Shown piece after piece: positions 26,574-63,381 of a DNA stretch of 64,000 nt (the stretch's first letter is position 1; the number at the start of each line of letters is the position of its first letter). A program made the translations under genes and the position numbers. The stretch comes from Catenuloplanes indicus (GTDB taxonomy: Bacteria; Actinomycetota; Actinomycetes; Mycobacteriales; Micromonosporaceae): NCBI RefSeq assembly GCF_030813715.1, contig NZ_JAUSUZ010000001.1, forward strand, positions 1,488,001 through 1,552,000, given 5' to 3'. The notes under the pieces were generated by a model that was given only the letters and a program-made list of their open reading frames with translations, had not been told where the DNA came from and did no database searches.

Positions 26574-26777
26574 TGAGTCCTCCGCGTTCACGCATCGACG
26601 TCCGCCACCGGCGGCGCCGGAAGGGCATCGATGATCAGGGTGAGCCGGCGGAACTCTATGGGCCGGCGACCCACCGTGTAAAGCACGCACACGAGATGTG
26701 AGCGAATCGCTTTACGTGTGCGGGCCGGATCTCTAGAGTGCGGCGCGGCCATCACATGTCAATCACGGGAGCCCCTG
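26574..26777. promoter_or_regulatory. Divergent promoter region of the RHS and LamG genes, with inverted repeats
   Basis: 204 bp between the two large divergent genes. It holds interleaved inverted repeats: GTAAAGC (26678-26684) with GCTTTAC (26709-26715), and CGCACACG (26686-26693) with CGTGTGCG (26715-26722). A TAGAGT -10-like box is at 26733-26738 for the LamG gene. The repeats could be a shared operator coordinating both genes (inference). Confidence 0.45.
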
Positions 26778-38620: not shown

Positions 38621-38665
38621 CGACGGCCTCCGAGCGTTGGCAGTGCTGTAAATATGCCGGTTAAC

Positions 38666-38697
38666 AAGTTGGCAAGCCACCGCCGAAACTTCGCAGT
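38666..38697. promoter_or_regulatory. Two candidate RamB-type boxes between ramB and aceA
   Basis: AAGTTGGCAAG (38666-38676) and AAACTTCGCAGT (38686-38697) each resemble the corynebacterial RamB box (AAACTTTGCAAA type) with two to three changes, in the same orientation. They lie about 80-110 bp before aceA and 45-75 bp before ramB, well placed to act on both. Confidence 0.5.
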
Positions 38698-38778
38698 AAT
38701 TGGCTTCTTGCGTGCCTCGACCGCCGGTCCGCGACCGTGTGACCGTGTGCTTCCGGCCTTCGACGAAGGAGTGGCGTG

Positions 38779-40037
38779 ATGACGGCGGAAGACCTACGGC
38801 GCGAATGGGACACCGACCCGCGATGGAACGGCGTCGAGCGCTCGTACACCGCGGCGGACGTGATCCGGCTGCGCGGCGTGGTGCGCGAGGAGCACACGCT
38901 CGCCCGGCGCGGCGCGCAGCGGCTGTGGCAACTGTTGCACGACGAGGACTACGTGCCCGCGCTCGGCGCGCTGACCGGCAACCAGGCGGTGCAGATGGTC
39001 CGCGCCGGGCTGAAGGCGATCTACCTGTCCGGCTGGCAGGTCGCGGCGGACGCGAACCTGGCCGGGCACACCTACCCCGACCAGAGCCTCTACCCGGCCA
39101 ACTCGGTGCCCGCGGTGGTCCGCCGGATCAACAACGCGTTGCTGCGGGCCGGGCAGATCTCCGCGGCCGAGGGCGACCAGGGCACCGACTGGCTCGCGCC
39201 GATCGTCGCGGACGCGGAGGCCGGGTTCGGCGGCGTGCTCAACGCGTACGAGCTGATGACCGCGATGATCGTGGCGGGCGCGGCCGGCGTGCACTGGGAG
39301 GACCAGCTCGCCGCCGAGAAGAAGTGCGGTCACCTCGGCGGCAAGGTGCTGGTCCCGACCGGTCAGCACGTGCGGACGCTGGAGGCGGCCCGGCTCGCCG
39401 CGGACGTCGCCGGTGTGCCGTCGGTGATCATCGCGCGGACCGACGCGCAGGCCGCCACGTTGCTGACCACGGACGTCGACGAGCGGGACGCGCCGTTCGT
39501 CACCGGCGACCGTACCGCCGAGGGTTTCTACCGGTTCCGCAACGGCATCGACGCGTGCGTGGCCCGCGGGCTCGCCTACGCGCCGCACGCGGATCTGCTG
39601 TGGATGGAGACCAGCACGCCGGACCTGGAGGTCGCGCGCCGGTTCGCCACCGCGATCAAGGAGCGGTACCCGGACCAGCTGCTGGCCTACAACTGCTCGC
39701 CGTCGTTCAACTGGCGCCGGCACCTGGACGAGACCACGATCGCGAAGTTCCAGCGCGAGCTCGGCCACATGGGCTACCGGTTCCAGTTCATCACGCTGGC
39801 CGGTTTCCACGCGCTGAACTACTCGATGTTCGACCTCGCGCACGGCTACGCCGCCGACGGCATGCCCGCCTACGTGGAGCTGCAGGAACGCGAGTTCGCC
39901 GCGGAGGCGCGCGGCTACACCGCGGTCAAGCACCAGCGAGAGGTCGGCACCGGCTACTTCGACCTGATCAGCACCGTGCTCAACCCGGCCGCGGAGACCA
40001 CGGCGCTGCACGGCTCGACCGAGGCGGAGCAGTTCGC

Positions 40038-40041
<4 letters not shown>
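38779..40041 (+). CDS. aceA: Isocitrate lyase
   Basis: 420-residue enzyme splitting isocitrate to succinate and glyoxylate, first step of the glyoxylate shunt used on acetate or fatty acids. The catalytic loop KKCGHLGGK with the active-site Cys is at about residues 181-189; [18 protein letters not shown] carries Mg ligands, and YNCSPSFNW the conserved substrate-binding segment. Length matches the compact actinobacterial type. ATG 38779 has GAAGGAG at 7 nt. The stop overlaps the ATG of the malate synthase gene (ATGA), so both shunt enzymes are co-translated. Control by the divergent RamB-type regulator is likely. Confidence 0.97.
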
Positions 40042-46058: not shown

Positions 46059-46258
46059 GAAGGTCCTCCGTGAACGGGGCCCTGGGGTACAGGGCTCGAC
46101 ATGAATCTTCTAGTGGCTTGAAGATCCATATGTCAATGCGATCACCATCGTTTTCTGAAGTGGATTTCAACACCGATTCACATTCGCTTACGAACCGGTT
46201 TCCCTCCTGTTTCGCCTGTGAGCAGCAACAATGCGAAAGAGGGGGTACGTCACACGAA

Positions 46259-46290
46259 GTTGCACCGAGTGCAACGGTGCACTTAGTGTA
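46259..46290. promoter_or_regulatory. Tandem palindromic operator of the tetR-mmpL operon
   Basis: Two palindromes with 3-nt centres in series: GTTGCAC-CGA-GTGCAAC (46259-46275, perfect) and TGCAC-TTA-GTGTA (46278-46290, one mismatch). The second covers the -10 box at 46284-46289. This is a clear candidate for self-repression by the TetR protein encoded just downstream. Confidence 0.8.
46284..46289 (+). promoter_or_regulatory. -10 box TAGTGT of the tetR-mmpL operon
   Basis: TAGTGT lies 7 nt before GTG 46297 and within the second operator palindrome. Leaderless-type start; it excludes the longer in-frame start at 46231. Confidence 0.65.
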
Positions 46291-46296
46291 AGGATC

Positions 46297-46920
46297 GTGC
46301 TGCCCACCGACCGTCGCGCCGCACTCAAGGCGCGCCACCGCCGCGCGATCATCGAGGCGGCCACCGCGCTGATCTCGGAGAGCGGCGCGGCCCGGTTCAG
46401 CGTGGACCAGCTGGCCGCGCGCGCGGACGTCTCCCGGCGCACGGTCTTCAACCACTTCGCCTCGATCGACGACATCGTCACCACCGCGTGCACCGACGTG
46501 CTCCGCGTCGTGGTCGACAACTTCCGCGCGGTCTTCACCGCCAGCCCGATAGAGCCCGGCAACCGCGCGTCGATGTTCGCCGCGGTCGCCGCCGCGCTGC
46601 GCGCCTCCGACGTGCCGAGCGTGATCGCGTTCATCTGGCAGGCGCTCGGCGGCTTCGGTCCCGGCGACCCACGACCGCAGCAGATCTTCCAGGCCACGTT
46701 CTCCCGTACCACCGACGAATTGGCTCGTGAACTGGCCGAGCGCAACGCGGCCGAGGATTCTCTCGACGCGGAATTGCTGGTCAGCTCCCTCATGCACGGC
46801 GTCGAGGTGATCGCGCACCACTGGATCGCCGAGACCGGCGCCGCGACCGACGAGGCCGCGCTCGCGCTCTGGGCCCGGCTGCTCGACCGGCTCATCGACA
46901 ACATCCGCACCGGCTACTGA
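46297..46920 (+). CDS. TetR family regulator of the MMPL transporter
   Basis: 207-residue repressor. The helix-turn-helix spans residues 12-57 (RRAIIEAATALISESGAARF, then DQLAARADVSRRTVFNHFAS). The C-terminal domain is of the kind found with RND/MMPL exporters. It lies 26 bp before the MMPL gene in the same direction, so the two form an operon. Its likely operator is the tandem palindrome at 46259-46290, which covers its own promoter. The ligand is probably a substrate of the pump (inference). Confidence 0.92.
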   Translation: MLPTDRRAALKARHRRAIIEAATALISESGAARFSVDQLAARADVSRRTVFNHFASIDDIVTTACTDVLRVVVDNFRAVFTASPIEPGNRASMFAAVAAALRASDVPSVIAFIWQALGGFGPGDPRPQQIFQATFSRTTDELARELAERNAAEDSLDAELLVSSLMHGVEVIAHHWIAETGAATDEAALALWARLLDRLIDNIRTGY

Positions 46921-46946: not shown

Positions 46947-49445
46947 ATGGCAGAGATGCTGTATCGCCTGGGACGCTTCAGCGCCCGGCGAGCGTGGGCA
47001 GTCCTGATCACCTGGCTGGTGATCCTGGGCCTGTCCGTCACCGCCTACTTCGTCGCGGGCGGCGCGCTGTCGTCGCAGGTGACCATCCCGGGCACGGAGA
47101 CCGCCAAGGTCACCGACCAGCTCGCGGAGCGGTTCCCGGTGGCCAGCGGCGGCACCGGCACTATCGTCTTCCACACCGCGGACGGCTCGCCGTTCACCGC
47201 GGAGCAGCAGGCCGCGATCGGCGCGCTGCTGACCTCCACCGGTGAGCTGGACGGCGTCTCCGCCACCCGCGACCCGTTCGCCACCGCACAGCAGATCGCG
47301 GCGCAGAGCCAGCAGCTCGCCGCGGGCCAGCAGCAGATCGACACCGAGCGCGGCAAGCTCGACGCCGGCCAGGCGCAGCTGGACGCGGGCCGCCAGCAGC
47401 TGGAGTCCGCGAAGGCGCAGGCACCGCCCGCGGCCGCGGCCCAGTTCGCCGCGCAGGAGGCGCAGCTGGCCGAGCAGCAGGCCCAGCTGGACGCGGGCCG
47501 CACCCGGCTGGACGCGGAGGCCGCGAAGCTCGACATCGGCCGCCAGCTGCTGGAGATGTCGTCCGGGATCCGCACGGTCTCCGAGGACAACACCACCGCG
47601 GTCGCCGCGGTCGTCTTCGCCGAGGCGCAGATGGACGTCACGCCGGAGACCAAGGAGCGCGTGGTCGACCACGTCACCGAGGGCGTCCCGGCCGGTGTCG
47701 AGGCGGACTTCTCCAACGAGATCACCCAGACCGTGCCGCAGGTCTTCGGCGTCGGCGAGGCGGTCGGCCTGGTGGTCGCCGCGATCACGCTGATCGTCAT
47801 GCTCGGCACGCTGATCGCGGCCGCGCTGCCGCTGATCGGCGCGCTGGTCGGCGTGGGCGTCGGCGTCACCGTGTCGCTGGCCATGTCCGGCGTCATCGAC
47901 ATGCTCTCCATCACGCCGGTGCTCGGCGTGATGCTCGGCCTCGCGGTCGGCATCGACTACAGCCTGTTCATCCTGAACCGGCACCGCCGCCAGTTGCTGG
48001 CCGGCATGGACGTGCACGAGTCGATCGGCCTGGCCAACGGCACCTCCGGCAACGCGGTCGTGTTCGCCGGCTCCACCGTGCTGGTCGCGCTGCTCGCGCT
48101 GAACATCACCGGCATCGGCTTCCTCGGCCTGATGGGCACGGTCGGCGCGATCTGCGTCGCGGTTGCCGTGATCATCGCGGTCACGCTCACCCCGGCGCTG
48201 CTCGGACTGCTCGGCCTGCGCGTGCTCACCAGGAAGGCGCGCGCCACGATCGGGCAGCCGCACCACGACACCACCCCGACCGCGCCGATGGGCACCGGGC
48301 GCGCGATCCTGACCGTGATCGCGTCGCTGGCCGTGCTGATCGTGGTCGCGATCCCGGCACTGTCCATGCGGCTCGGCCTGCCGGACGGCTCGTCGGAGTC
48401 CGAGGACTCCACCCAGTACCAGGCGTACACCATCACCGAGCGCGCGTTCGGCGCCGGCGTCAACGGCCCGCTGCTGGTCGTGGCGGAGCTGCCGGCCGCG
48501 GTCGCGGACGAGGAGGCCGCCCGCCCCGAGCAGGTCCGGATCGGCAACCTGCTGCTCGGCCACGCGGACGTCACCGCGGTCGCGCCGATCGGCCTCTCCG
48601 ACGACAAGCAGCTGCTCGCGTTCCAGGTCATCCCGGCCGAGGGCCCGAACAGCGTCTCCACCGGCCAGCTCGTCCGCGACCTGCGCGCCATGTCCCCGAT
48701 CGAGGGCGACGTGACGCTCGGCGTGGCCGGCAGCGCCAGCGGCAACATCGACGTCTCCGAGCAGCTCTCCGACGCGCTCCCGCGCTACCTCGCGGTCGTC
48801 GTCGGCCTGTCCCTGATCATCCTGATCTTCGTGTTCCGCTCGATCCTGGTCCCGGTCACCGCCACGCTCGGCTTCGTGCTGTCGCTGTTCGCCACGTTCG
48901 GCGGCATCACCGCGATCTTCCAGTGGGGCTGGCTCGGCCAGATCTTCGACGTGCACGACCCGGGCCCGATCCTGAGCTTCCTGCCCACCATCCTGATCGG
49001 CATCCTGTTCGGCCTCGCCATGGACTACCAGCTCTTCCTGGTCTCCGGCATGCGCGAGGCCTACGCGCACGGCGCTCCCGCCCGGCTCGCCGTCCGCCAG
49101 GGCGTACACGCCGGCCGCGTCGTGGTCACCGCCGCCGCGATCATCATGATCTCCGTCTTCGGCGGCTTCATCTTCAGCCACACCACGATGATCCGCTCGA
49201 TCGGCTTCGGCCTCGCCTTCGGCGTCCTCGCCGACGCGTTTCTGGTCCGCATGCTGCTCATCCCGGCCGTCATGCACCTGCTCGGCACGTCCGCCTGGTG
49301 GATCCCGCGCTGGCTCGACCGCATCCTGCCCAACGTCGACGTCGAGGGTGCCGCCCTCGAACGCCGCCACCCCACCGCACCGCACGAGACCCCGGAGAAC
49401 ACGGCCAGCACGGCCGAGGAGACTCCCGCCGCGAAACCGATCTGA
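46947..49445 (+). CDS. MMPL/RND family transporter
   Basis: 832-residue inner-membrane exporter of the MMPL branch of the RND superfamily (proton-driven export of lipids or hydrophobic compounds). Twelve membrane helices are expected in two halves. The first external loop contains a long Gln/Ala-rich coiled coil (QQLAAGQQQIDTERGKLDAG, then AEQQAQLDAGRTRLDA), and helix 4 has the proton-relay-type segment LAVGIDYSLFILNRHRR, matched in the second half by FGLAMDYQLFLVSGMREA. ATG 46947 has AAAGGGA upstream. Co-transcribed with tetR and followed by two hairpins. Export of the nearby PTM product is possible but unproven. Confidence 0.94.
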   Translation: MAEMLYRLGRFSARRAWAVLITWLVILGLSVTAYFVAGGALSSQVTIPGTETAKVTDQLAERFPVASGGTGTIVFHTADGSPFTAEQQAAIGALLTSTGELDGVSATRDPFATAQQIAAQSQQLAAGQQQIDTERGKLDAGQAQLDAGRQQLESAKAQAPPAAAAQFAAQEAQLAEQQAQLDAGRTRLDAEAAKLDIGRQLLEMSSGIRTVSEDNTTAVAAVVFAEAQMDVTPETKERVVDHVTEGVPAGVEADFSNEITQTVPQVFGVGEAVGLVVAAITLIVMLGTLIAAALPLIGALVGVGVGVTVSLAMSGVIDMLSITPVLGVMLGLAVGIDYSLFILNRHRRQLLAGMDVHESIGLANGTSGNAVVFAGSTVLVALLALNITGIGFLGLMGTVGAICVAVAVIIAVTLTPALLGLLGLRVLTRKARATIGQPHHDTTPTAPMGTGRAILTVIASLAVLIVVAIPALSMRLGLPDGSSESEDSTQYQAYTITERAFGAGVNGPLLVVAELPAAVADEEAARPEQVRIGNLLLGHADVTAVAPIGLSDDKQLLAFQVIPAEGPNSVSTGQLVRDLRAMSPIEGDVTLGVAGSASGNIDVSEQLSDALPRYLAVVVGLSLIILIFVFRSILVPVTATLGFVLSLFATFGGITAIFQWGWLGQIFDVHDPGPILSFLPTILIGILFGLAMDYQLFLVSGMREAYAHGAPARLAVRQGVHAGRVVVTAAAIIMISVFGGFIFSHTTMIRSIGFGLAFGVLADAFLVRMLLIPAVMHLLGTSAWWIPRWLDRILPNVDVEGAALERRHPTAPHETPENTASTAEETPAAKPI

Positions 49446-50364: not shown

Positions 50365-51273
50365 ATGGACACCTCAGCTCAGCCCGGCCCGGCACCCGTC
50401 GTGGCCGCGCCGGCGATCCTCGCCACCGGGGCCGGCGCGGCCCTGCGCGTGCTGGCCTACCCCGTGCTCCTCGCGGCCATGGTGGTGACCGGTGTGGCAG
50501 CCCCGAGGCTCGGGTGGGACCTCGGCATCGCGAACTTCCTCTTCCTGCTCGGCACGATCGCCTACTTCGCCACCCTCGAACGCCTGATCCCGTACGAACC
50601 GGCCTGGCATCCGAGCCGGCGGGAGTGGCGCTCGTACGGCATCTACTTCCTGCTCACCCTGCTCGGCGGCGGCATCGCCCAGTTCGGGGTGTCCTGGCTG
50701 GTGAACGCGGTAGCGGCGCCCGTGCCGGCCCTGCCGCCGGCCGCCGAGATCCCGCTGGCCCTGCTCGCCGGATCGCTGGGCAGCTACGTGATGCACCGCC
50801 TCGGGCACACCAACCGCTGGCTGTGGAAACTGCACGGCATCCACCACCTGCCGGACAAGGTCAACGTCGGCAACAACGGCGTCTCGCACGTCCTCGACAT
50901 CGTGCTGGCCCAGGGCGCGGTGCAACTGGCACTCGCGCTGGCCGGGTTCTCCGAGCCGTCCGTCTTCCTCGTCGGCCTGTTCGTGGTCGTGCAGGGCTAC
51001 TTCACGCACGCCAACATCGACGTGCGCATCGGCTGGCTGAACCGCGTGCTGGCCAGCCCGGAACAGCACCGGCTGCACCACAGCACGGATCTCGCCGAGG
51101 CCGGCAACTACGGCTCCGACCTGTCCATCTGGGACCAGCTGTTCGGCAGTTTCACCTGGCGGCCGGGCCGCCGCCCGGCCGGGATCGGCGTGACCGACCC
51201 GGGCTCGTTCCCGCCGGTCGGCGCGATCGGCGCGACCCTGCTGCACCCCCTGCGCGGCGACCGCCGCTACTAG
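50365..51273 (+). CDS. Sterol desaturase/fatty acid hydroxylase family enzyme (PTM C-3 hydroxylase candidate)
   Basis: 302-residue integral membrane di-iron hydroxylase. Hydrophobic helices precede the histidine clusters: HRLGHTNRWLWKLHGIHH (about 150-168), a single His in YFTHANIDVR, and HRLHHSTDLAEAGNYG (about 234-250), the eight-His pattern of the family. In PTM clusters the homologue (FtdA, and SD of the HSAF cluster) hydroxylates the ornithine-derived C-3 of the tetramate. ATG 50365 has GGAGG at 5 nt. It is 34 bp before the PKS-NRPS gene and same strand, so it should be the first gene of the PTM operon. The specific role is inferred from family and context. Confidence 0.88.
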   Translation: MDTSAQPGPAPVVAAPAILATGAGAALRVLAYPVLLAAMVVTGVAAPRLGWDLGIANFLFLLGTIAYFATLERLIPYEPAWHPSRREWRSYGIYFLLTLLGGGIAQFGVSWLVNAVAAPVPALPPAAEIPLALLAGSLGSYVMHRLGHTNRWLWKLHGIHHLPDKVNVGNNGVSHVLDIVLAQGAVQLALALAGFSEPSVFLVGLFVVVQGYFTHANIDVRIGWLNRVLASPEQHRLHHSTDLAEAGNYGSDLSIWDQLFGSFTWRPGRRPAGIGVTDPGSFPPVGAIGATLLHPLRGDRRY

Positions 51274-51307
51274 CGCCCGCGCCCCGACCTCACCCCCAAG
51301 GATGACA

Positions 51308-54300
51308 ATGAGCCACTCCCTTGACGCCACGTCCCCGGAGCAGGCCGAGAAGATCGCCATCGTCGGCATCGGCTGCCGGCTGCCGGGCGGGGCCTCGGAC
51401 CACCGGTCGTTCTGGAGCAACCTGATCGACGGAAAGGACTGCATCACCGACACTCCCGCGGACCGGTACGACGTCGGCACGCTCGGCAGCCGGGACAAGA
51501 CCAAACCGGGCCGGCTGGTCGGCGGGCGAGGCGGCTACATCGACGGGATGGCCGAGTTCGACCCGGCCTTCTTCGGGATCAGCCCGCGCGAGGCCGAGCA
51601 CATGGATCCGCAGCAGCGCAAGCTGCTGGAGGTCGCCTGGGAGGCGCTGGAGGACGGCGGGCAGATCCCGGGCGAGCTGGCCGGCACGGACGTGGGCGTC
51701 TTCGTCGGCGCGTTCACGCTGGACTACAAGATCCTCCAGTTCGCCGACCTCAGCTTCGAGACGCTGGCGGCGCACACCGCGACCGGCACGATGATGACGA
51801 TGGTCTCGAACCGGATCTCGTACTGCTTCGACTTCCGCGGGCCCAGCCTGTCGATCGACACCGCGTGCAGCTCCTCCCTCGTCGCGGTGCACCTGGCCCG
51901 GCAGAGCCTGCTGCGCGGCGAGAGCCGGGTCGCGCTGGCCGGCGGCACGCTGCTGCACCTGACTCCGCAGTACACGATCGCCGAGACCAAGGGCGGATTC
52001 CTGTCACCGGAGGGCCGCTCGCGCACCTTCGACGCGTCCGCGAACGGCTACGTACGGGCGGAGGGGGTCGGGGTCGTGGTGCTGAAACGACTGTCCGACG
52101 CGCTGCGTGACGGCGACCCGATCCACGCGGTGATCACCGGCAGCGGCGTCAACCAGGACGGCCACAGCAACGGCATCACGGTCCCGAACGCGGACGCCCA
52201 GACCGCGCTGATCGAGCGGGTCTGCGCCGAGGCCGGCATCACCCCGGGAAACCTGCAGTACATCGAGGCGCACGGCACCTCCACCCCGGTCGGTGATCCG
52301 ATCGAGGCGAACGCGCTCAGCCGCGCGCTGTCCATCGGCCGGGCCCCGGGCGAGCGCTGCTACGTGGGCTCGGTCAAGACGAACATCGGGCACACCGAGT
52401 CGGCCGCGGGCGTCGCCGGTCTGATCAAGACCGCACTGGCGCTCAAGCACCGGGTCATCCCGCCGCACATCAACCTCGAGCGGCTCAACCCCGCGATCGA
52501 CGAGGCGTCCCTGTCGTTCGAGATCCCCACCGCGCCGGTCCCCTGGCCGGCGCACACGGGACCGGCCCGCGCCGGGGTCAACTCGTTCGGCTTCGGCGGC
52601 ACCAATGCGCACGTGCTGCTGGAGGAGGCCCCGGAGCGCGCCGTCCCCGCCCCGGCCGCGGTGCCGCCGGGCCACACGATCCTGCCGCTGACCGCCCGCG
52701 ACCCGGCCGTGCTGCCGCGACTCGCCGCCGACATCCACGCAGAACTGGCCGGCGGCACCGACCTGGCCGGCCTCGGCTACACGCTGGCCCGCCGCCGTCA
52801 GCACCACGACGCCCGGCTGTCGATCGTCTACTCCTCCCGCGAGTCGCTGGACGAGGCGCTGGGCGCGTACGTGCGCGGCGAGCCGCATCCCCGGGTCCTC
52901 ACCGGCCAGCGCCGCGACCCGGCGGACCAGCGCCTGGTGTGGGTGTTCACCGGCATGGGCCCGCAGTGGTGGGCGATGGGCCGCGAGCTGTTCGAGACCG
53001 AGTCCGTCTACCGGGCCACCGTCGAGCGGTGCGACTGGGTGTTCCGGCGGCTGACCGGCTGGTCGCTGGTGGACGAGCTGAACGCGGACGAGGCCGACTC
53101 GAACATGGCGGAGACCTGGCTGGCCCAGCCGGCGAACTTCGCGGTCCAGATCGGGCTCGCCGCGCTGTGGCGCAGCTACGGCATCCGCCCGGACGCCGTC
53201 GTCGGGCACAGCACCGGCGAGGTGGCCGCGTTCTACGAGGCCGGCGTCTACTCGCTGGAGGACGCGGTGCGGGTGGTCGTGCACCGCAGCCGGCTGCAGC
53301 AGAAGCTGGTCGGCACCGGCACCATGCTCGCGGCCGGCCTGACCGAGGCGGAGGCGCGGGCGCGGGTGCTGCCCTACGGCGACCGGATCTCGGTGGCCGC
53401 GGTCAACAGCCCCGGCGCGGTCACGCTCGCCGGCGACGAGGACGCCCTGGCCGAGCTGGCCGGCGCGCTCCAGGCGGAGCAGACCTTCGCCAAGTTCCTC
53501 TCGGTCCGGGTGCCGTACCACAGCGCGCGGATGGAGGCGATCAAGGACGAGCTGCTCTCCTCGCTCGCCGGGCTGGCACCGCGCCCGGCCCGGGTGCCGC
53601 TCTACCTGACCGGGACGGACGGCATCGCCGACGGCCCGGAGCTCGACGCCGATTACTGGTGGCGGAACGTGCGCGACACCGTTCGCTTCGGCGCCGCGGC
53701 CGACCGGCTGATCGGCGACGGGTACCGGCTCTTCCTGGAGATCGGCCCGCATCCGGTGCTCGGCCACTCGATCCAGGAGTGCCTGGCCGCGCGCGACACC
53801 CACGGCCGGACGCTGCCGTCGATCCGGCGTGCCGAGAACGAGCCGGAACGGATGCTCACGTCACTGGCCGCGCTGCACAACGAGGGTTTCCCGATCGCCT
53901 GGGACGTCCTCCAGCCGGCCGGCACGCAGGTGCCGCTGCCCCGGTACCCGTTCAAGACCGACCGCTACTGGGTGGAGCCGGCCCCGGTCGCCCAGATCCG
54001 GCTCGGCCGGCGCGACCACCAGCTGCTCGGCCGGCGGATGGCCACCACCGGTCCGGTCTGGGAGGCGAAGCTGGACACCGAGGCCGCGCCCTACCTCGAC
54101 GATCACCGTATCCAGGGCAACGTCGTCTTCCCGGCCGCCGGCTACCTGGAGATGGCGGTGCAGGCGGCCCGCGCGATCACCGGCGGGGGCCGGGCCACGC
54201 TGACCGGCGTCGAGCTGCGCAAGGCGCTGTTCCTGCCCGGCGGCGAGACCCGGACCGTGCAGACCAGCGTCGCCGCGGAGGACGGCGGATTCACGGTGGC

Positions 54301-57300
54301 CTCGCTCACCGCGGACGGCGCCGAACCCGCGGTGCACGCCACCGGGGTGCTGACCGCCGGCCGGCCGCACGACGGCACACCGCCGCTGGACGTCGCGGCC
54401 GTCCGCGGGCGCACCACGACGCACCTGCACGCCGCGGAGTGCTACGCCGGGCTCGCCGCGCACGGTTACCAGTACGGCCCGGCGTTCCAGGCCATCGCGG
54501 AGGTGTGGATCGGCCCGGACGAGGCGTTGGCACGGCTCCGGCCACCCGCCGCGCTGGACGGCACCGCGGCGGATTTCCACGCACATCCGGCGCTGCTCGA
54601 CGCCGCGTTCCAGACGCTGCTGACCCCGCAACTGCTGGAGTCCGGCGCGGACGGCGAGCGGCGGACCGGCATCCGGCTGCCGTTGTCCATCGGCGAGGTC
54701 AGCCTGGACGCGTTCGGCGACCGCGAGCTGTGGGTGCACGCCACGATCGTCCGGCATGACGCCGACGAGCTGGTCGGCGACCTGGGGATCTACGCGGCGG
54801 ACGGCACGCCGCTGGGCACGGTCGGCGCCTTCCGGGCCGCGGACGTGGAGAAGGCGTCGTCGGCGGTGAGCGTCGCCACGATCGACGGCTGGCTGACCGA
54901 ACCGGTGTGGCTGCCGCTGCCGGAGCTGCCCGACGCGGCACCGGTGACCGGCGACCGGTGGCTGGTCCTGGCCGACGGCACCGGCCTGGCGGAGGAGTTC
55001 GCCGGCCTGGTCACCGCGCGGGGCGGGCACTGCCACCTGGTCCGGCCCGGCACCGCCTTCCGGACCGATCACGATCATTCGGTGGTACGGCCGGACTCCG
55101 CCGAGGACCTGCGCCGCGTGCTCGACGGCCTGCGTGCCGGCGGCGGACCGGCCGGGCACGTCCTGCACCTGTGGAACCTGGACCTGCCGGACTTCGGCAC
55201 GAGCACCGCCGCGGACCTGCCCGGCGGCGGCGCGCTCGGCGCCTACTCGCTCGTCGCGCTCGCCCAGGCACTGTCCGGCGAGGAGCCCGGTGGCCGGTTG
55301 CACGTCGTGACCCGGGGCAGCCAGCCGGTGGACGGCACCGGCGTGACGCAGCCGGCCGGCGCGCCGGCCTGGGGCGTCGCCCGGGTCCTGCGGGATCAGG
55401 AGCTGACCGGGCACCGCGGGAAGCTCGTGGATCTCGGCGCCGCGGGTGCGGGCCCGCGCGCCGAGGCGGCGGCGCTGCTGCGCGAGCTCGCCCACGACGA
55501 CGAGGACGAGGTCGCGCTGCGCGGCGAGCACCGGTTCACCAGCCGGCTGCGGCCGGCGGACGGGCTGCACCGCCCGCTGCCGCTACGACTGCGCCCGGAC
55601 GGCGCCTACCTGGTCACCGGCGCGTTCGGTGCGCTCGGCCGGCTGCTGTGCCGGACGCTCGTCCGCCGCGGCGCCCGCCGCCTCGTCCTGGCCGGCCGCA
55701 CGCCGGTGCCGCCCCGCGAGCAGTGGGACGACGCCGGGTGGGACGACGCGACCCGGGACCGGATCGCGTTCCTGACCGGCCTGGAGGAGCTCGGCTGCCA
55801 GCCGGTGGTGGCCCGGGTGGACGTCACCGACGAGCGGGCGCTGACCGGCTGGCTGGACGAGTACCGGCGGCGGCGATCCGCACCGATCCGCGGCGTGTTC
55901 CACCTCGCCGGCCAGGTCCGCGACGTCCGCGTCGGGCAGATGGACCGGGACGCGTTCGACGCCGCGTACGACCCGAAGGTGATCGGCGCCTACCTGCTGC
56001 ACCGGCACCTCGGCGACGAGCCGCTCGACCACTTCGTGCTGTTCGCGTCCGTCGCGTCGCTGCTGACCACGGCCGGCCAGACGAACTACGCCGCCGGCAA
56101 CGCGTTCCTCGACGCGCTCGCCCACCACCGGCGGGCGACCGGCCGCCCGGCGCTGAGCCTGGACTGGGGGCCGTGGGCCACCGGCATGATCGAGGAGCTG
56201 GGCCTCGTCGACCACTACCGGAACAGCCGCGGCATGCACTCGCTGTCGCCGGCCGCCGGGATGGCGGTGCTCGAGCGGGTCGCGGGAGCGGACCGCGCGC
56301 AGTTGCTGGTCGCGACGGTGGTCAACTGGCCGGTCTTCCTGTCCTGGTACGACCGCCCGCCCGCGCTCGTGGCCGAGCTGGCCGCGAGCGCCGCCCAGAC
56401 GCCGGCCACCGACCACGGCGGCTTCCTGGAGGAGTTCCGCGACGCAGGCGACGAGGACCGGCGGCGGATGCTCACCGAGCGGTTCGTCGCGGTGGTGGCC
56501 GACGTGCTCCGCACCCCCGCGGACGCGATCGACCTGTCGGCCGGCGTCACCGCGCTCGGCCTCGACTCGCTGCTCGCGATGGAGCTGCGCGCCCGGATCA
56601 CGGCCGAGCTGCACGTCGCCCTGCCGGTGGTCGCGCTGCTCAGCGGCGCCTCGGTCACCGACCTGATCGGGCAGGCGCACCAGGGCCTGATCGAGGTGCT
56701 GGACGCCGGGGACGTCACCGCCGCGGACGTGACCGTCCACGCGGACGAGGCCAGATATCCGCTCACGCAGAACCAGAACGCGCTGTGGTTCCTCAAGCAG
56801 CTCGACCCGGACGGTTTCGCCTACAACATCGGCGGGGCGGTCGAGGTCCGGGTGGCGATCGAGCCGGACCTGATGTTCGAGGCGGTGCGGGTGCTCATCG
56901 CCCGGCACCCCAGCCTGCGGGCGAACTTCCTGATGGAGCAGGGCCGGCCGGTGCAGCGCATCTCCGTGGAGCCGCGGGCCGACGTGGCCCTGTTCGACGT
57001 ACGGGACGCGGAGTGGGACGACGTCTACCAGGCGATCATCCGGGAGTACCGGCGCCCGTACGACCTGGAGCACGACCCGCTGCTGCGCTTCCGGCTGTTC
57101 CGGCGCGACGACGACCGGTGGATCATCATGAAGGCCGTCCACCACATCATCTCGGACGCCATCTCCACGTTCACGTTCATCGAGGAGCTGCTGGCCGTCT
57201 ACGAGGGACTGCGCCGCAAGGAGCCGGTGACGCTGCCGCCGGTGCGGTCCTCGTACCTCGGCTTCCTGAACTGGCAGTCCCGGTTCCTGGCGAGCCCGCA

Positions 57301-60300
57301 GGCGAAGCGCTCGCTCGACTACTGGACGGCGCACCTGCCGGCCGAGGTGCCGGCGCTCAACCTGACCACCGACCATCCGCGGCCGGCCGTGCAGACCCAC
57401 AACGGCGCGTCCGAGTTCTTCACGCTCGACCCGGAGCTCAGCGCGCGGGTGCACGCCACCGCGCGGGAGCACAACGTCACGCCGTTCATGGTGCTGCTCT
57501 CCGCCTACTACGTGCTGCTGCACCGGTACAGCGGGCAGGACGACGTGATCGTGGGCAGCCCGGTGACCGGCCGTACCCAGGAGGAGTTCGCCTCGGTCTA
57601 CGGCTACTTCGTCAACCCGCTGCCGCTGCGGGCGAATCTGGCCGGTGACCCGTCCGTCGGTGAGCTGCTGGCCCAGGTGCGCTCGACCGTCCTCAACGGA
57701 CTGGACAATCAGGAGTACCCGTTCGTGCTGCTGGTGGAGCAGCTCGGCCTGCAGCACGACCCGAGCCGGTCGGCCGTCTTCCAGGCGATGTTCATCCTGC
57801 TCACGCACAAGGTCGCGACGGAGAAGTACGGATACCGGCTGGAGTACATCGAGCTGCCGGAGGAGGAGGGCCAGTTCGACCTGACGCTGTCCGTCTACGA
57901 GGAGGAGGCGGACGGGCGGTTCCACTGCGTGTTCAAGTACAACACCGACCTGTTCCGGCCGGAGACGATCGCGCGGATCTCCGGGCACTACGTGCGGCTG
58001 CTGGACTCGCTGACCGCCGCGCCCGCGGGCACGCCGATCACCGCGCTGGACATGCTCGCGGACGACGAACGGGAGCGGATCCTCGACCGCTGGAGCGGCG
58101 CCGGCCGGCGGGCCGGGTACGACCGGCCGGTGCACGAGCTGGTGGTCGCGGCCGCCGCGGCCCGGCCCGAGGCGGAGGCGGTCGTGTCCGGTCCGGCGGA
58201 GCGGCTGACCTACGCGGCGCTGGAGCGCCGGTCCCGGGCGCTCGCCCATCGGCTGCGCGACCTCGGCGTCCGGACCGGCACGGTGGTCGCGCTGTGCCAG
58301 GACAAGTCCGCGGACCTGATCACGTCGATCCTCGCGGTTCTCCGGGCCGGCGGCGCCTACCTGCCGCTGGACCCCGGATACCCGGCGGAGCGCCTCGCCT
58401 ACATGGTGGAGCACGCCGGTGCGGCGCTCGTGCTCGCCGACGAGGCCGGCCGGGAGCACCTGACCGGCCCGGCGCTGGACGTGTCCGCGCTGCTGGCCGA
58501 GGCGGAGACCGGCGCACCACTCGACGTGCGGGTGGGACTGGACGATCCGGCCTACGTCATCTACACCTCCGGGTCGACGGGCGTGCCGAAACCGGTCCGG
58601 GTCACCCACCGCAACCTGGCCGCCGTGTACGCCGGCTGGCGCGACGAGTACCGGCTGGCCGACGACGTCCGGGTGCACCTGCAGATGGCCGGCGTCGCGT
58701 TCGACGTCTTCACCGGCGACCTGGTCCGCGCGCTCTGCTCCGGCGGCAGCCTGGTGCTGGCCGGCCGGGATCTGCTGCTCGACACCGCCCGCCTGTACCG
58801 CACGATGACCGAGGAACGGGTCGACTGCGGCGAGTTCGTGCCCGCGGTCGTCCGCGGCCTGCTCGCCCACTGCGAGCGGGAGGGGCTGCGGCTGGACTTC
58901 ATGCGCCTGCTGGTGGTCGGCTCGGACGTCTGGAAGGTGGAGGAGTACGAGCGGCTGCGCGCGGTCTGCGGTACCGGCACCCGGGTGGTCAACTCGTACG
59001 GGCTGACCGAGGCGACGATCGACACCACCTGCTTTGAGGGCCCGGCGGACGGGCTGGAGCCGGGCCGGATGGTGCCGATCGGCCGCCCCTTCCCGAACAG
59101 CGCGGTCTACCTGCTCGACCCGCACGGTGAGCCGGTGCCGCCCGGCGTCCCCGGTGAGCTCTGGGTCGGCGGGGACGGCGTGTCGGACGGCTATCCGGGC
59201 GACCAGGAGCAGACCGCGCGGCGCTTCGTCACCCGGACGCTGAGCCGTCGCCCGGGCGCGGCCGCGGTGCGCCTCTACCGCACCGGTGACCTGGGCCGGT
59301 GGGACGCCGACGGGGTCCTGCACCTGCTCGGCCGCGCCGACAACCAGGTGAAGGTGCGCGGCCACCGGATCGAGACCGGCGAGGTGGAGTCACACCTGCT
59401 GAGCCGGCCGGAGGTGGCGGACGCGGTGGTCGTGGTCCGGCCGGACGCCACCGGCGAGCCCGCGCTGTGCGCCTACTGGGTGCCGGCGGCCGGCGGGTCC
59501 GTGGCCGGCGCGCGGCAGGTGCGGCGATGGCTCGCCGACCGGCTGCCGAACTTCATGATCCCCACGCACGTCATGGCGCTGGACGTGCTGCCGCTGACCC
59601 CGAACGGCAAGGTCGACACGGCCGCGCTGCCGGCACCGCGCGCGGAGATCGGGGACGGCGAGCCGGAGCCGCCGGTCACGCTGTACGAGGTGCGGATGGC
59701 CGCGCACTGGCGGGAGATGCTCGGCTGCGAGCCCGATCTGCGGCTGGACTTCTTCGAGGCCGGCGGCACGTCGATCAAGCTCGTCGAGCTGATCTACCGG
59801 CTCCGGCAGGAGTTCAACATCGAGATCCAGGTGAGCCGGCTGTTCCGGATCACCACGCTGCGCGGCATGGCCGGCACGGTCGAGCAGATCGTCACCGGGC
59901 GGCTCAGCGGCGGGCAGCCGTACCTGACGTTCAATCCCGAGGCCGGCCCGGCGCTGTTCTGCTTCCCGCCGGCCGGTGGGCACGGGCTGGTGTACCGCCA
60001 GCTCGCGGCGCAGTTGCCGGAACTGGGCATCGTCGGGTTCAACCACCTGGGCGGGGACGACCGGGTGGCCCGCTACGCGGATCTGGTGGAGCGGCTCCGG
60101 CCGGACGGCCCGTGCCCGCTCCTCGGCTACTCGCTCGGCGGGAACCTGGCCTTCGAGGTGGCGAAGGAGCTGGAGGGCCGGGGCCGGACCGTACCGCACG
60201 TGATCATCGTCGACTCGTACCGGGTCGCGGAGACGTTCGAGTTCGGGCCGGAACAGTTCGCGGCGTTCGAGCGCGAGCTCGCCGAGCACCTGTTCCGGCA

Positions 60301-60589
60301 CACCGGGTCGGAGATCGTGGCGCGCGAGACCCGGGAGCAGGCCCGCGAGTACATCGAGTTCTGCAGCCGCACGCCGAACACCGGCACGGTGGCGGCGACC
60401 GTCACGGTGCTCAGCGACCAGGACAAGACCGCGTTCTACGCGGCCGGCGAGCGGGGTAGCTGGGCCGGCGCGTCGGCACACCGGGACGAGTTGCTGACCG
60501 GGTCCGGTACGCACGCCGAGATGCTCGACCTGGAGCACGCCGCCCGCAACGCCGCACTGATCCGCCAGGTCCTGGGCGCCCCCAGCTGA
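51308..60589 (+). CDS. Iterative type I PKS-NRPS of polyene tetramate macrolactam type
   Basis: 3093-residue megasynthase with one PKS and one NRPS module. KS (about 10-440; Cys187 in DTACSSS, EAHGTSTPVGD, NIGHTES), AT (540-860; Ser635 in GHSTGE), DH (900-1160; H933 in DDHRIQGNVVFP, HPALLDAAFQ), KR (about 1440-1650; TGAFGALG, Y1594), ACP (Ser1754 in GLDSL), C (1810-2260; H1945-H1946 and D1950 in HHIISDA), A (2270-2780; YTSGSTG at 2419), PCP (Ser2822 in GGTSIKL), TE (Ser2942 in GYSLGG, H3069). No ER or MT. The A-domain code reads D-V-G-E-L-V-S-I-D-K, close to the ornithine code. PTM synthases build two polyenes on both amines of ornithine and close the tetramate with the TE. ATG 51308 has AAGGA at 5 nt. 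Confidence 0.93.
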   Translation: MSHSLDATSPEQAEKIAIVGIGCRLPGGASDHRSFWSNLIDGKDCITDTPADRYDVGTLGSRDKTKPGRLVGGRGGYIDGMAEFDPAFFGISPREAEHMDPQQRKLLEVAWEALEDGGQIPGELAGTDVGVFVGAFTLDYKILQFADLSFETLAAHTATGTMMTMVSNRISYCFDFRGPSLSIDTACSSSLVAVHLARQSLLRGESRVALAGGTLLHLTPQYTIAETKGGFLSPEGRSRTFDASANGYVRAEGVGVVVLKRLSDALRDGDPIHAVITGSGVNQDGHSNGITVPNADAQTALIERVCAEAGITPGNLQYIEAHGTSTPVGDPIEANALSRALSIGRAPGERCYVGSVKTNIGHTESAAGVAGLIKTALALKHRVIPPHINLERLNPAIDEASLSFEIPTAPVPWPAHTGPARAGVNSFGFGGTNAHVLLEEAPERAVPAPAAVPPGHTILPLTARDPAVLPRLAADIHAELAGGTDLAGLGYTLARRRQHHDARLSIVYSSRESLDEALGAYVRGEPHPRVLTGQRRDPADQRLVWVFTGMGPQWWAMGRELFETESVYRATVERCDWVFRRLTGWSLVDELNADEADSNMAETWLAQPANFAVQIGLAALWRSYGIRPDAVVGHSTGEVAAFYEAGVYSLEDAVRVVVHRSRLQQKLVGTGTMLAAGLTEAEARARVLPYGDRISVAAVNSPGAVTLAGDEDALAELAGALQAEQTFAKFLSVRVPYHSARMEAIKDELLSSLAGLAPRPARVPLYLTGTDGIADGPELDADYWWRNVRDTVRFGAAADRLIGDGYRLFLEIGPHPVLGHSIQECLAARDTHGRTLPSIRRAENEPERMLTSLAALHNEGFPIAWDVLQPAGTQVPLPRYPFKTDRYWVEPAPVAQIRLGRRDHQLLGRRMATTGPVWEAKLDTEAAPYLDDHRIQGNVVFPAAGYLEMAVQAARAITGGGRATLTGVELRKALFLPGGETRTVQTSVAAEDGGFTVASLTADGAEPAVHATGVLTAGRPHDGTPPLDVAAVRGRTTTHLHAAECYAGLAAHGYQYGPAFQAIAEVWIGPDEALARLRPPAALDGTAADFHAHPALLDAAFQTLLTPQLLESGADGERRTGIRLPLSIGEVSLDAFGDRELWVHATIVRHDADELVGDLGIYAADGTPLGTVGAFRAADVEKASSAVSVATIDGWLTEPVWLPLPELPDAAPVTGDRWLVLADGTGLAEEFAGLVTARGGHCHLVRPGTAFRTDHDHSVVRPDSAEDLRRVLDGLRAGGGPAGHVLHLWNLDLPDFGTSTAADLPGGGALGAYSLVALAQALSGEEPGGRLHVVTRGSQPVDGTGVTQPAGAPAWGVARVLRDQELTGHRGKLVDLGAAGAGPRAEAAALLRELAHDDEDEVALRGEHRFTSRLRPADGLHRPLPLRLRPDGAYLVTGAFGALGRLLCRTLVRRGARRLVLAGRTPVPPREQWDDAGWDDATRDRIAFLTGLEELGCQPVVARVDVTDERALTGWLDEYRRRRSAPIRGVFHLAGQVRDVRVGQMDRDAFDAAYDPKVIGAYLLHRHLGDEPLDHFVLFASVASLLTTAGQTNYAAGNAFLDALAHHRRATGRPALSLDWGPWATGMIEELGLVDHYRNSRGMHSLSPAAGMAVLERVAGADRAQLLVATVVNWPVFLSWYDRPPALVAELAASAAQTPATDHGGFLEEFRDAGDEDRRRMLTERFVAVVADVLRTPADAIDLSAGVTALGLDSLLAMELRARITAELHVALPVVALLSGASVTDLIGQAHQGLIEVLDAGDVTAADVTVHADEARYPLTQNQNALWFLKQLDPDGFAYNIGGAVEVRVAIEPDLMFEAVRVLIARHPSLRANFLMEQGRPVQRISVEPRADVALFDVRDAEWDDVYQAIIREYRRPYDLEHDPLLRFRLFRRDDDRWIIMKAVHHIISDAISTFTFIEELLAVYEGLRRKEPVTLPPVRSSYLGFLNWQSRFLASPQAKRSLDYWTAHLPAEVPALNLTTDHPRPAVQTHNGASEFFTLDPELSARVHATAREHNVTPFMVLLSAYYVLLHRYSGQDDVIVGSPVTGRTQEEFASVYGYFVNPLPLRANLAGDPSVGELLAQVRSTVLNGLDNQEYPFVLLVEQLGLQHDPSRSAVFQAMFILLTHKVATEKYGYRLEYIELPEEEGQFDLTLSVYEEEADGRFHCVFKYNTDLFRPETIARISGHYVRLLDSLTAAPAGTPITALDMLADDERERILDRWSGAGRRAGYDRPVHELVVAAAAARPEAEAVVSGPAERLTYAALERRSRALAHRLRDLGVRTGTVVALCQDKSADLITSILAVLRAGGAYLPLDPGYPAERLAYMVEHAGAALVLADEAGREHLTGPALDVSALLAEAETGAPLDVRVGLDDPAYVIYTSGSTGVPKPVRVTHRNLAAVYAGWRDEYRLADDVRVHLQMAGVAFDVFTGDLVRALCSGGSLVLAGRDLLLDTARLYRTMTEERVDCGEFVPAVVRGLLAHCEREGLRLDFMRLLVVGSDVWKVEEYERLRAVCGTGTRVVNSYGLTEATIDTTCFEGPADGLEPGRMVPIGRPFPNSAVYLLDPHGEPVPPGVPGELWVGGDGVSDGYPGDQEQTARRFVTRTLSRRPGAAAVRLYRTGDLGRWDADGVLHLLGRADNQVKVRGHRIETGEVESHLLSRPEVADAVVVVRPDATGEPALCAYWVPAAGGSVAGARQVRRWLADRLPNFMIPTHVMALDVLPLTPNGKVDTAALPAPRAEIGDGEPEPPVTLYEVRMAAHWREMLGCEPDLRLDFFEAGGTSIKLVELIYRLRQEFNIEIQVSRLFRITTLRGMAGTVEQIVTGRLSGGQPYLTFNPEAGPALFCFPPAGGHGLVYRQLAAQLPELGIVGFNHLGGDDRVARYADLVERLRPDGPCPLLGYSLGGNLAFEVAKELEGRGRTVPHVIIVDSYRVAETFEFGPEQFAAFERELAEHLFRHTGSEIVARETREQAREYIEFCSRTPNTGTVAATVTVLSDQDKTAFYAAGERGSWAGASAHRDELLTGSGTHAEMLDLEHAARNAALIRQVLGAPS

Positions 60590-60620
60590 CCGGCCCGACT
60601 TCGAGGGGATGTCGACGCAC

Positions 60621-62324
60621 ATGTCAGAAGAGGTTTCCCGGCGGGAAACAATGATCATCATCGGCGGTGGCCTGGCCGGTCTCGCCACGGGCAGCTATGC
60701 CCGGATGAACGGGTACCGGACCCGGATCCTGGAGATGCACGAACTGCCCGGCGGCTGCTGCACCTCGTGGGAGCAGGGCAGGTTCACCTTCGACTGGTGC
60801 GTGAGCTGGCTGCTCGGCAGCGGGCCGGGCAACGACATGTACCAGATCTGGCTCGAACTGGGCGCGTTGCAGGGCAAGCAGATGCGTACCTTCGAGACGT
60901 TCAACAACGTACGGGGACGGGACGGCCGGACCGTCTACTTCTACTCCGACCCGGACCGGCTGGAGGCGCACCTGCTGGAGCACTCGCCCGCGGACGCGCG
61001 GCTGATCCGCGAGTTCTGCGATGGCGTGCGCACGTTCAAGAAGCTGCTCAACGCGTACCCGTTCCTCAAGCCCCCGGGTCTGATGGGCCGGCTGGAACGC
61101 TGGCGGATGCTCGCCGTCTTCCTCCCGCACTGGAACACCGTGCGCAAGGCGCTCACCACGCTGATGACCGACTACTCCGCGAGGTTCAAGGACCCGCTGC
61201 TGCGCGAGGCGTTCAACTTCATCCTGTACGAGCGGCACCCCGCCTTCCCGCTGCTGCCGTTCTACTTCCAGCTCGGCGCGCACGCCGGGCAGACCGCCGG
61301 CGTGCCCGAGGGCGGGTCGCTGGAACTGGCCCGCTCGATCGAACGGCGCTACCAGCGGCTCGGCGGCGAGATCACCTACAACGCGAAGGTGGAGGAGATC
61401 CTGGTCGAGGACGACCGGGCGGTCGGGGTGCGGCTCAGCGACGGGCGCGAGTACCACGCGGACATCGTGGTCGCGGCCTGCGACGGCCACACCGCGGTGA
61501 CCCGGATGCTGAAGGGCCGCTACGTCAACGAGACCTACCGGCGGCTCTACGAGGAGACGATCAACGAGCCCGGGCAGACCTACCCCGGTTACGTCAGCGC
61601 GTTCTTCGCCCTCGACCGGCCGTTCCCGGACGAGGACCCGTGCACCACGCACCTGCTCACCGCGGAGGAGTCCACCGGCCTGCTGGGGATGGGCGAGCAT
61701 CCCAGCATCAACGTGCAGTTCCGCAGCAAGCACTACCCCGAGCACTCGCCGGACCGGACCACCGTCGTCTTCGTGACGTACTTCTCCGACGTCGCGGCCT
61801 GGCGGGCGCTGGCCGACGGCCCCGAGCAGGCCAGCCGGGTCCGCAAGGGCGAAGAGCTGCACACCCTGCGGGTACGCCGGGGCCGCGCCTACTACACGGC
61901 CAAGCGCGAGATCCGGGACGCGCTGATGGAGCTGCTGGACAAGCGTTTCCCCGGGTTCCGCGACGCGGTCGTGACCTACGACGTCTCCACGCCGCTCACC
62001 CAGATCCGCTACACCGCGAACCACGACGGCTCGATCGCCGGCTGGCTGCCGTTCGTCGACGGTGGCGAGGACATGGAGAAGGAGCTGGAGAAGAACGGGC
62101 CGGTGCTGCCCGGACTGTCCAACTTCTACCTCGCCGGCGTCTGGACCACGATCGGCGGCCTGATCCGCGCGGTCGCCAGCGGGCGGCACGTCGTCCAGTT
62201 CATCTGCCGTGACGACGGCCGGCCGTTCACCGCGAGCATCGACGACACCGCACCGGAGCCGACGCAACTCATGGTTCCCGTGCCCCCCGCGCGTACATCC
62301 GCCCTCACCAGCCAAGGAGCATGA
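60621..62324 (+). CDS. FAD-dependent phytoene-dehydrogenase-like oxidoreductase (PTM ring formation)
   Basis: 567-residue flavoprotein of the phytoene desaturase/carotenoid isomerase family. The dinucleotide motif IIIGGGLAGLATGSYARM sits near the N-terminus (about 13-30), followed by LPGGCCTSWEQG, and the C-terminal FAD segment is FYLAGVWTTIGGLIRAVASG. In PTM clusters such enzymes (IkaB, OX1-3) reductively cyclise the polyene to the carbocycles. Only one is encoded here. ATG 60621 is preferred; ATG 60609 is possible, but its ribosome site is too close. It starts 31 bp after the PKS-NRPS stop and overlaps or abuts the next gene, so it is in the same operon. Confidence 0.9.
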   Translation: MSEEVSRRETMIIIGGGLAGLATGSYARMNGYRTRILEMHELPGGCCTSWEQGRFTFDWCVSWLLGSGPGNDMYQIWLELGALQGKQMRTFETFNNVRGRDGRTVYFYSDPDRLEAHLLEHSPADARLIREFCDGVRTFKKLLNAYPFLKPPGLMGRLERWRMLAVFLPHWNTVRKALTTLMTDYSARFKDPLLREAFNFILYERHPAFPLLPFYFQLGAHAGQTAGVPEGGSLELARSIERRYQRLGGEITYNAKVEEILVEDDRAVGVRLSDGREYHADIVVAACDGHTAVTRMLKGRYVNETYRRLYEETINEPGQTYPGYVSAFFALDRPFPDEDPCTTHLLTAEESTGLLGMGEHPSINVQFRSKHYPEHSPDRTTVVFVTYFSDVAAWRALADGPEQASRVRKGEELHTLRVRRGRAYYTAKREIRDALMELLDKRFPGFRDAVVTYDVSTPLTQIRYTANHDGSIAGWLPFVDGGEDMEKELEKNGPVLPGLSNFYLAGVWTTIGGLIRAVASGRHVVQFICRDDGRPFTASIDDTAPEPTQLMVPVPPARTSALTSQGA

Positions 62325-62325
62325 C

Positions 62326-63381
62326 ATGAGGATCGAGAAGTGGGTCGTCCGCCGGCACCTGGACGGGCTGCCGAACACCGAGAAGATCTACGAGAAGGTC
62401 GTCGAGGACGTGCCGGTCACGCTCCGGGCCGACGAGATGCTGTTCCGGACGAGGTACGTGTCGGTCGACCCGTACCTGCACGGGCTCGCGCTGGAGACCC
62501 CGATCGGCGAGCACATGATCGCCGACTCGATCATGGAGGTGGTCGAGGCCGGGCCGGACGCCGCGTTCCGGGCCGGCGACCTCGTCCAGGGCTACGGCGG
62601 GTGGCGCAGCCACGTCATCGGCACCGGCGGCGAGGTGCTCTGGCAGGGCGAGTCCTTCCCGATGGTGTTCCCGGCGTACCGCCTGCTGAACCCGGCGCAC
62701 TACGACGACGTGCTGCCGGTGGCGACCGCCCTCGGCGTGATGGGCGGCCCGGGGATCACGGCCTGGGGTACGCTCGCGCACTTCATGACGATCCGGCCGG
62801 ACGACACGCTGGTGATCAGCGGTGCCTCGGGCGCGGTCGGCACGATCGTCGGCCAGCTGGCGAAGCGGGCCGGTGCCCGGGTGGTGGGGACGACCTCGTC
62901 GCCGGAGAAGGCCGGCTTCCTCACCGACCTCGGGTTCGACGCGGTGGTGCCGTTCCGGCACGGCGACGACCCGGACCGGGTCCGGGAGGAGCTGCTCAAG
63001 GCCGCGCCGAACGGTGTCGACCGGTACTTCGACAACCTGGGGGGCACGATCACCGACGTGGTCTTCGGCATGCTCACCGTGCACAGTCAGGTCGCCGTCT
63101 GCTGGCAGTGGGCGACCCAGGTGAACCGCGACTACACCGGGCCGCGGCTGCTGCCGTACATCATGCAGCCGCGCACCACCATCCGCGGCATCTTCGCGCA
63201 CGAGTGGTTCACGGAGGAGAACCTCACGGCGATGCGGGACGAGCTGGGCGGCATGATCCGCCGGGGCGAGCTGCGCTTCCGGCAGACGATCTACCGCGGT
63301 TTCGACGAGATCCCGGCCGCGTACCAGAGCCTCTACGTGGACCGCTCCGGCAATCGCGGCAAGGTCCTGGTGGAACTCTGA
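62326..63381 (+). CDS. NADP-dependent MDR family reductase (PTM inner-ring closure candidate)
   Basis: 351-residue zinc-independent medium-chain reductase (curcumin/alkenal double-bond reductase type). The N-terminal GroES-like domain ends near GITAWGTLAHF, and the Rossmann fold has SGASGAVGTIVGQLAKRAGA near residue 165; catalytic Zn-binding Cys are absent. In PTM biosynthesis the corresponding enzyme (IkaC, OX4, FtdE) closes the inner five-membered ring by reduction and Michael addition. ATG 62326 has AAGGAG at 6 nt, one base after the FAD gene stop. It is the last cluster gene and is followed by a strong terminator. Confidence 0.9.
   Translation: MRIEKWVVRRHLDGLPNTEKIYEKVVEDVPVTLRADEMLFRTRYVSVDPYLHGLALETPIGEHMIADSIMEVVEAGPDAAFRAGDLVQGYGGWRSHVIGTGGEVLWQGESFPMVFPAYRLLNPAHYDDVLPVATALGVMGGPGITAWGTLAHFMTIRPDDTLVISGASGAVGTIVGQLAKRAGARVVGTTSSPEKAGFLTDLGFDAVVPFRHGDDPDRVREELLKAAPNGVDRYFDNLGGTITDVVFGMLTVHSQVAVCWQWATQVNRDYTGPRLLPYIMQPRTTIRGIFAHEWFTEENLTAMRDELGGMIRRGELRFRQTIYRGFDEIPAAYQSLYVDRSGNRGKVLVEL

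Follow-up and report, generated by a model that had tools for sequence, protein, structure and literature searches.

A probable ikarugamycin-type polyene tetramate macrolactam gene cluster with its own hydroxylase gene in Catenuloplanes indicus

Introduction

All polyene tetramate macrolactam (PTM) synthases are described as making the same precursor, with the ring type of the final product being set by phytoene-dehydrogenase-like FAD enzymes (PhyDHs) together with an MDR reductase (PMC11724479). The same paper reports that the lone PKS module of IkaA acts iteratively, that IkaABC gives ikarugamycin, and that the addition of PtmD leads to butremycin through hydroxylation of the ornithine part at C-3. 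According to PMC8399814, the 5/6 ring system goes with a single FAD enzyme, the inner five-membered ring is installed by IkaC, and the SD/FtdA hydroxylases, a type reported there to be promiscuous, act on C-25 in the numbering of that paper. A 2026 paper describes the part of IkaC in cyclisation as only indirect (PMC13027431). Butremycin was first isolated from Micromonospora sp. K310, in a paper whose main text contains neither the term “gene cluster” nor the word “genome” (PMC3944527).

Here we describe a locus from Catenuloplanes indicus that sits within a 64,000-nucleotide stretch of contig NZ_JAUSUZ010000001.1 (positions 1,488,001 to 1,552,000), which we call the window and to which all coordinates below refer unless another sequence is named. 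The ikaABC clusters of Streptomyces sp. Tu6239 and S. xiamenensis 318, and that of S. harbinensis (L049), share with the window an iterative PKS/NRPS, a single PhyDH and a single MDR reductase in the same order. However, the window has an additional hydroxylase gene upstream, lacks an ikaD-like P450 gene beside the cluster, and has a synthase that belongs to a different branch of the PTM tree. The engineered butremycin route, in which ptmD is combined with ikaABC (PMC11724479), has the same enzyme complement as the window, whereas in the window the hydroxylase gene sits with ika-type genes in one native locus. The HSAF, frontalamide, pactamide and alteramide clusters resemble the window in having a hydroxylase gene before the synthase gene, a synthase of the same type and the MDR gene last, but differ in their two or more PhyDH genes and their other ring systems, as described in part in PMC8399814. 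Two further clusters, those of S. eurythermus (L089) and Streptomyces sp. 150FB (L098), have the order of the window, hydroxylase, synthase, single PhyDH and MDR reductase; both differ in a P450 gene that follows the cluster and is absent beside that of the window.

Results

The four genes lie head to tail on the forward strand. They encode a hydroxylase (50365-51273, +), an iterative PKS/NRPS of the IkaA/FtdB type (51302-60589, +; 3095 aa), a PhyDH (60609-62324, +) and an MDR reductase (62326-63381, +). The original prediction of four head-to-tail genes with gaps of 1-34 bp is confirmed, as the gaps measure 28, 19 and 1 bp, the second being 34 bp if the alternative PhyDH start at 60624 is used. 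Start codons were picked with the help of gene order and relatives: the hydroxylase gene is given an ATG start within a longest open reading frame that begins at 50221 and spans 350 aa, and the MDR gene is given a start within a longer GTG frame that runs from 62209 and overlaps the PhyDH gene. GC content per codon position backs the coding nature of all four genes. Pfam families bear out the predicted sterol desaturase-type hydroxylase, phytoene-dehydrogenase-like FAD enzyme and MDR reductase, with FA_hydroxylase (PF04116, 8.8e-28) in the first gene, Amino_oxidase/NAD_binding_8 in the third (its top NCBIfam match, crtI_fam, fell under that family's cut-off) and ADH_N_2/ADH_zinc_N in the fourth. 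Because the same kinds of gene recur in the same order across many genomes, a chance origin of the arrangement is excluded.

Directly upstream of the cluster lie a TetR gene (46231-46920, +) and an MMPL transporter gene (46947-49445, +). Neither had a match in the loci of the four relatives from the same family, which reach about 4.7 kb upstream in one case (L122) and 1.5-1.9 kb in the other three, so that in these three short loci just the proximal part of the MMPL gene, and nothing of the TetR gene, could have come into view. Three weak or partial matches to the MMPL gene were found among the other loci searched. Given the lack of matches in the four relatives, over this uneven upstream reach, we lean towards leaving both genes out of the cluster; the MMPL transporter could still export the product. 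The downstream neighbour is a convergent GH2-type hydrolase gene, which had no match in the loci of the four relatives. No P450 was found in the four cluster genes, in four of the first six genes called downstream or in the six scanned upstream, and one encoded elsewhere in the genome could alter the product further.

Two features lie elsewhere in the window. A gene at 19653-26690 (-), in and beside the stretch of lowest GC content in the window (0.635 at 16-20 kb and 0.68 at 20-24 kb), encodes an RHS-repeat protein of 2345 aa that has a pretoxin HINT domain and resembles a polymorphic toxin-type gene product. An isocitrate lyase family gene (38776-40041, +) adjoins a divergent gene for a ScfRs-type regulator, a short-chain acyl-CoA regulator (37235-38680, -).

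The synthase had been predicted as a PKS-NRPS of about 3100 residues with the order KS-AT-DH-KR-ACP-C-A-PCP-TE, and the Pfam order (ketoacyl-synt, Acyl_transf_1, PKS_DH_N/PS-DH, KR, PP-binding, Condensation, AMP-binding, Thioesterase) and the order of motifs both agree with this. All domains are on the forward strand. The KS domain (51347-52480) has the active-site motifs DTACSSS, EAHGTST and NIGHTE, the AT domain (52937-53887) has GHSTGE, the DH domain (54017-54850) has HRIQGNVVFP, the KR domain (55601-56179) has GAFGALGR and ASVASLLTTAGQTNYAAGN, the ACP (56480-56668) has LGLDSLLA and the C domain (56750-58084) has HHIISDAIS. Pfam counted a second PP-binding stretch in the synthase, and the position of the PCP was set by its phosphopantetheine motif, EAGGTSIKL (59756-59782). 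The TE domain (59951-60403), expected to carry out tetramate release, has GYSLGG, a motif found in 83 of the 86 PTM synthases compared, the other three being gapped. The catalytic residues and motifs are thus intact throughout: the KS Cys and two His, AT GHSTGE, DH HRIQG, the KR motifs, the Ser of both ACP and PCP, the HHxxxD of the C domain and TE GYSLGG.

The A domain (58151-59611) carries the specificity code DVGELVSIDK, which is shared by 69 of the 86 synthases, the window, Lysobacter, S. griseus and S. harbinensis among them. We take this to be the ornithine code, and the A domain, also by analogy with other family members, is predicted to select L-ornithine. A separate observation concerns the AT domain, where the specificity position is occupied by VPYHS (synthase residues 737-741), a motif presumably unlike those usual for malonyl and methylmalonyl AT domains. 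Both VPYHS and GHSTGE are invariant in all 86 synthases.

For comparison, PTM loci were gathered with a profile of eight C domains; 274 stretches matched the pattern, 155 of them encode relatives, and the best 80 of the 155 were used. Together with the window and four of seven further clusters (L033, L035 and L037 were left out) these make 85 loci, and with the four family relatives 89, from which 86 synthases were obtained (L084, L094 and L100 have no synthase stretch longer than 2000 aa). The window synthase is 64.6-87.9% identical, over aligned length, to the 85 others, and its partner genes occur in the same order, which upholds the original assignment to the PTM clusters. Its KS is 77.2-94.8% identical to 83 PTM KS domains, and the three best other KS domains of the same genome reach 44.5, 42.1 and 32.4% (47, 46 and 40% over shorter matches). 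Similarly, its C domain is 68.6-92.2% identical to 85 PTM C domains, and the five best others reach 32.2-36.6%. The original prediction had named grouping outside the PTM clade as its refutation; run for KS and C, trees of both domains have a branch that separates the PTM rows from outgroups of the same genome (support 96 and 100; the KS tree lacks two synthases missing their N-terminus). These results support the assignment of the four-gene locus as a PTM cluster. The class and its enzymes are already known, and the product probably is too.

The hydroxylase shares 84% identity with its counterpart in the closest family relative and 62-74% with those in the three others. Of the ten His residues at positions 192-287 of the 350-aa frame, nine are fully conserved across the 69 aligned PTM hydroxylases and the remaining one is conserved in 68. 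No solved structural relative was found by sequence at E up to 1. By analogy with FtdA, SD and PtmD, whose genes it resembles in lying upstream of the synthase, it is expected to act on C-3 of the ornithine part.

A whole-genome search returned one strong PhyDH match (1339.5 bits), followed by two of 29.6 and 23.7 bits. Among the 85 loci, 67 have at least two PhyDH genes, 13 have one and five have none in view, four of these five stopping at or inside the synthase. In trees of the quick kind, with SH-aLRT support only, that include the four family relatives, all 17 single-PhyDH rows fall on one side of a branch for PhyDH (support 96) and likewise for MDR (support 95). S. avicenniae and S. caelestis fall in both clades, as does S. 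harbinensis (L049, duplicated by L036 with identical PhyDH and MDR). The title of Liu et al. 2013 (cited in PMC6092505) names S. harbinensis as an ikarugamycin producer, and aviABCD of S. avicenniae is shown next to ikaABCD as a PTM cluster (PMC5241641). Before the family relatives were included, the window PhyDH formed a long branch (0.75), the single-PhyDH clade had a support of only 91, and a tree that kept the 12 remaining single rows together, without the window, could not be rejected (p 0.113). For MDR, a constrained tree beat the free tree by 5 log units in one test, so the quick search was not optimal there. The structure predicted for the MDR reductase with 31 sequences (pLDDT 88.5, compared with 41.3 from the single sequence) matches 9ji7 and 9jp8 (62% and 70% identity), which are deposited merely as NADP-dependent oxidoreductases.

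Exactly one PhyDH, and the grouping of PhyDH and MDR with S. harbinensis, support placing the cluster in the ikarugamycin (5-6-5) subtype. The original prediction had likened the cluster to those of ikarugamycin, frontalamide and HSAF alike; the PTM assignment stands, but the equal likeness does not, as there is one PhyDH gene and its product and the MDR both fall with the ikarugamycin type. By analogy, we expect the PhyDH to be an IkaB-type cyclase that would form the two outer rings and the MDR/ADH reductase to be of the IkaC type and to form the inner ring. It is unlikely that the cluster instead makes another PTM ring type (5-5, 5-5-6 or 5-6 only) through a divergent PhyDH or MDR of changed regiochemistry. 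Two observations would fit such a product: the window PhyDH is merely 63-73% identical to PhyDHs of the same type outside the family, and among loci outside the family it is the multi-PhyDH clusters that hold the closest matches to the synthase and to the hydroxylase (for the hydroxylase, in a tree without the four family relatives). Against it, both PhyDH and MDR fall with the single type, and the second, distinct PhyDH of multi-PhyDH clusters (the FADa type) is absent, with no separate gene for it in the four relatives.

Several other loci deserve mention in their own right. Streptomyces sp. ISL-100 (L092, 3073-21025 of its sequence) has a PTM hydroxylase gene and a full-length synthase gene without adjoining cyclases; the 7.5 kb downstream of that synthase gene, a sequence without N, matched neither PhyDH nor MDR at E 1e-5. 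A subgroup with a single PhyDH (L099, L107, L103, L091, L094 and L031) leaves enough space between the synthase and PhyDH genes for one more gene, which is a P450 gene in L099 and L107; the scanned piece of L031 matched no family. Distant PhyDH-like proteins (L005-L016 and L018; 34-47% identity) occur elsewhere in the phylum, in other classes, and several of them come from small genomes.

The ikarugamycin-type assignment of the cyclases has no counterpart in the ancestry of the synthases. With the split into single- and multi-PhyDH rows set by gene content before the trees, again of the quick kind, were built, holding the single-PhyDH synthases together as one clade was rejected for KS-AT (16 single and 31 multi rows; a cost of 93 log units, p-AU 2.8e-7) and for C-A (15 single rows, L091 being lost, and 31 multi rows; 171 log units, p-AU 1.4e-5), the 31 multi rows being a hand-picked subset of the 86. 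Well-supported synthase branches force at least two (KS-AT) or at least three (C-A) changes between single and multi types. In the C-A tree the synthases of the window and its family relatives adjoin those of Actinophytocola, Actinokineospora and Saccharothrix (support 94), all of which have several PhyDHs. This grouping of the family with Pseudonocardiaceae was rejected by the PhyDH data (nine rows held, p-AU 0.004) and not by the MDR data (eight rows held, p-AU 0.266); it was picked after the synthase tree had been viewed, which makes its test weaker than its p value.

At E up to 1e-120, PhyDH matches were found in 8 of 394 genomes of the class and in 5 of 354 genomes of the family (probably Micromonosporaceae), the window included in both counts, and in 3 of 44 genera of the family. 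All four family relatives have the hydroxylase, synthase, PhyDH and MDR together; identities across the four proteins are 84-91% for the closest relative, which belongs to the same genus, and 62-80% for the other three. This bears on whether the cluster might be silent, giving no product under ordinary conditions. Many PTM clusters are reported to be silent in culture (PMC11724479) and no cluster regulator was identified here, but four intact, coding-biased frames with their motifs kept, and the identity retained in all four proteins by the same-genus relative, make silence quite improbable.

Discussion

We propose that this locus is very probably a complete four-gene ikarugamycin-type (5-6-5) PTM cluster with a C-3 hydroxylase, giving butremycin. 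What can be seen directly is which genes are present, how the domains are ordered, that the motifs are intact, that the locus belongs to the PTM family and that PhyDH and MDR fall among those of the single-PhyDH type; for iteration, ring chemistry, the site of hydroxylation and the product we rely on the literature. Hypothetically, the synthase would act iteratively to make two polyene chains and would attach both at the two amino groups of L-ornithine; the tetramate polyene released would be lysobacterene A. The single IkaB-like PhyDH would then make the outer rings, and the IkaC-like MDR reductase would close the inner ring to give ikarugamycin. Oxidation of C-3 of the ornithine part by the hydroxylase would finally yield butremycin, with an expected [M+H]+ of about 495.285. 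Because the enzyme set is that of ikaABC with a hydroxylase added, the likeliest product is butremycin, a relative of ikarugamycin that carries an added hydroxyl group. We give almost no credence to an ordinary, non-iterative PKS-NRPS that makes a linear or differently cyclised lipopeptide with the oxidoreductases unrelated to it, as the domain order by itself fits one-module use but the full-length identity to PTM synthases and the conservation, gene order included, of its cyclase and hydroxylase partners speak against it.

As for the history of the cluster, the discord between the synthase and PhyDH trees suggests, as its simplest reading, that the PhyDH cyclase gene has been exchanged between synthase backgrounds. 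We tentatively hypothesize, at a little less than an even chance, that the cluster is a natural chimera, in which a PTM synthase, and probably the hydroxylase, of a lineage related to multi-PhyDH clusters gained an ikarugamycin-type PhyDH and perhaps the MDR. In such a history the ring type would have been switched, on no fewer than two or three occasions across the PTM family, by exchange of the cyclase genes that follow a synthase making the common precursor.

The window thus probably holds a hydroxylated ikarugamycin-type cluster that is both complete and minimal and occupies a single native locus; it would offer a cheap test, outside Streptomyces, of the rule that links genes to ring type. 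The mismatch between synthase and PhyDH trees, in turn, bears on the origin of PTM diversity, which may lie in the exchange of cyclases behind a uniform precursor.
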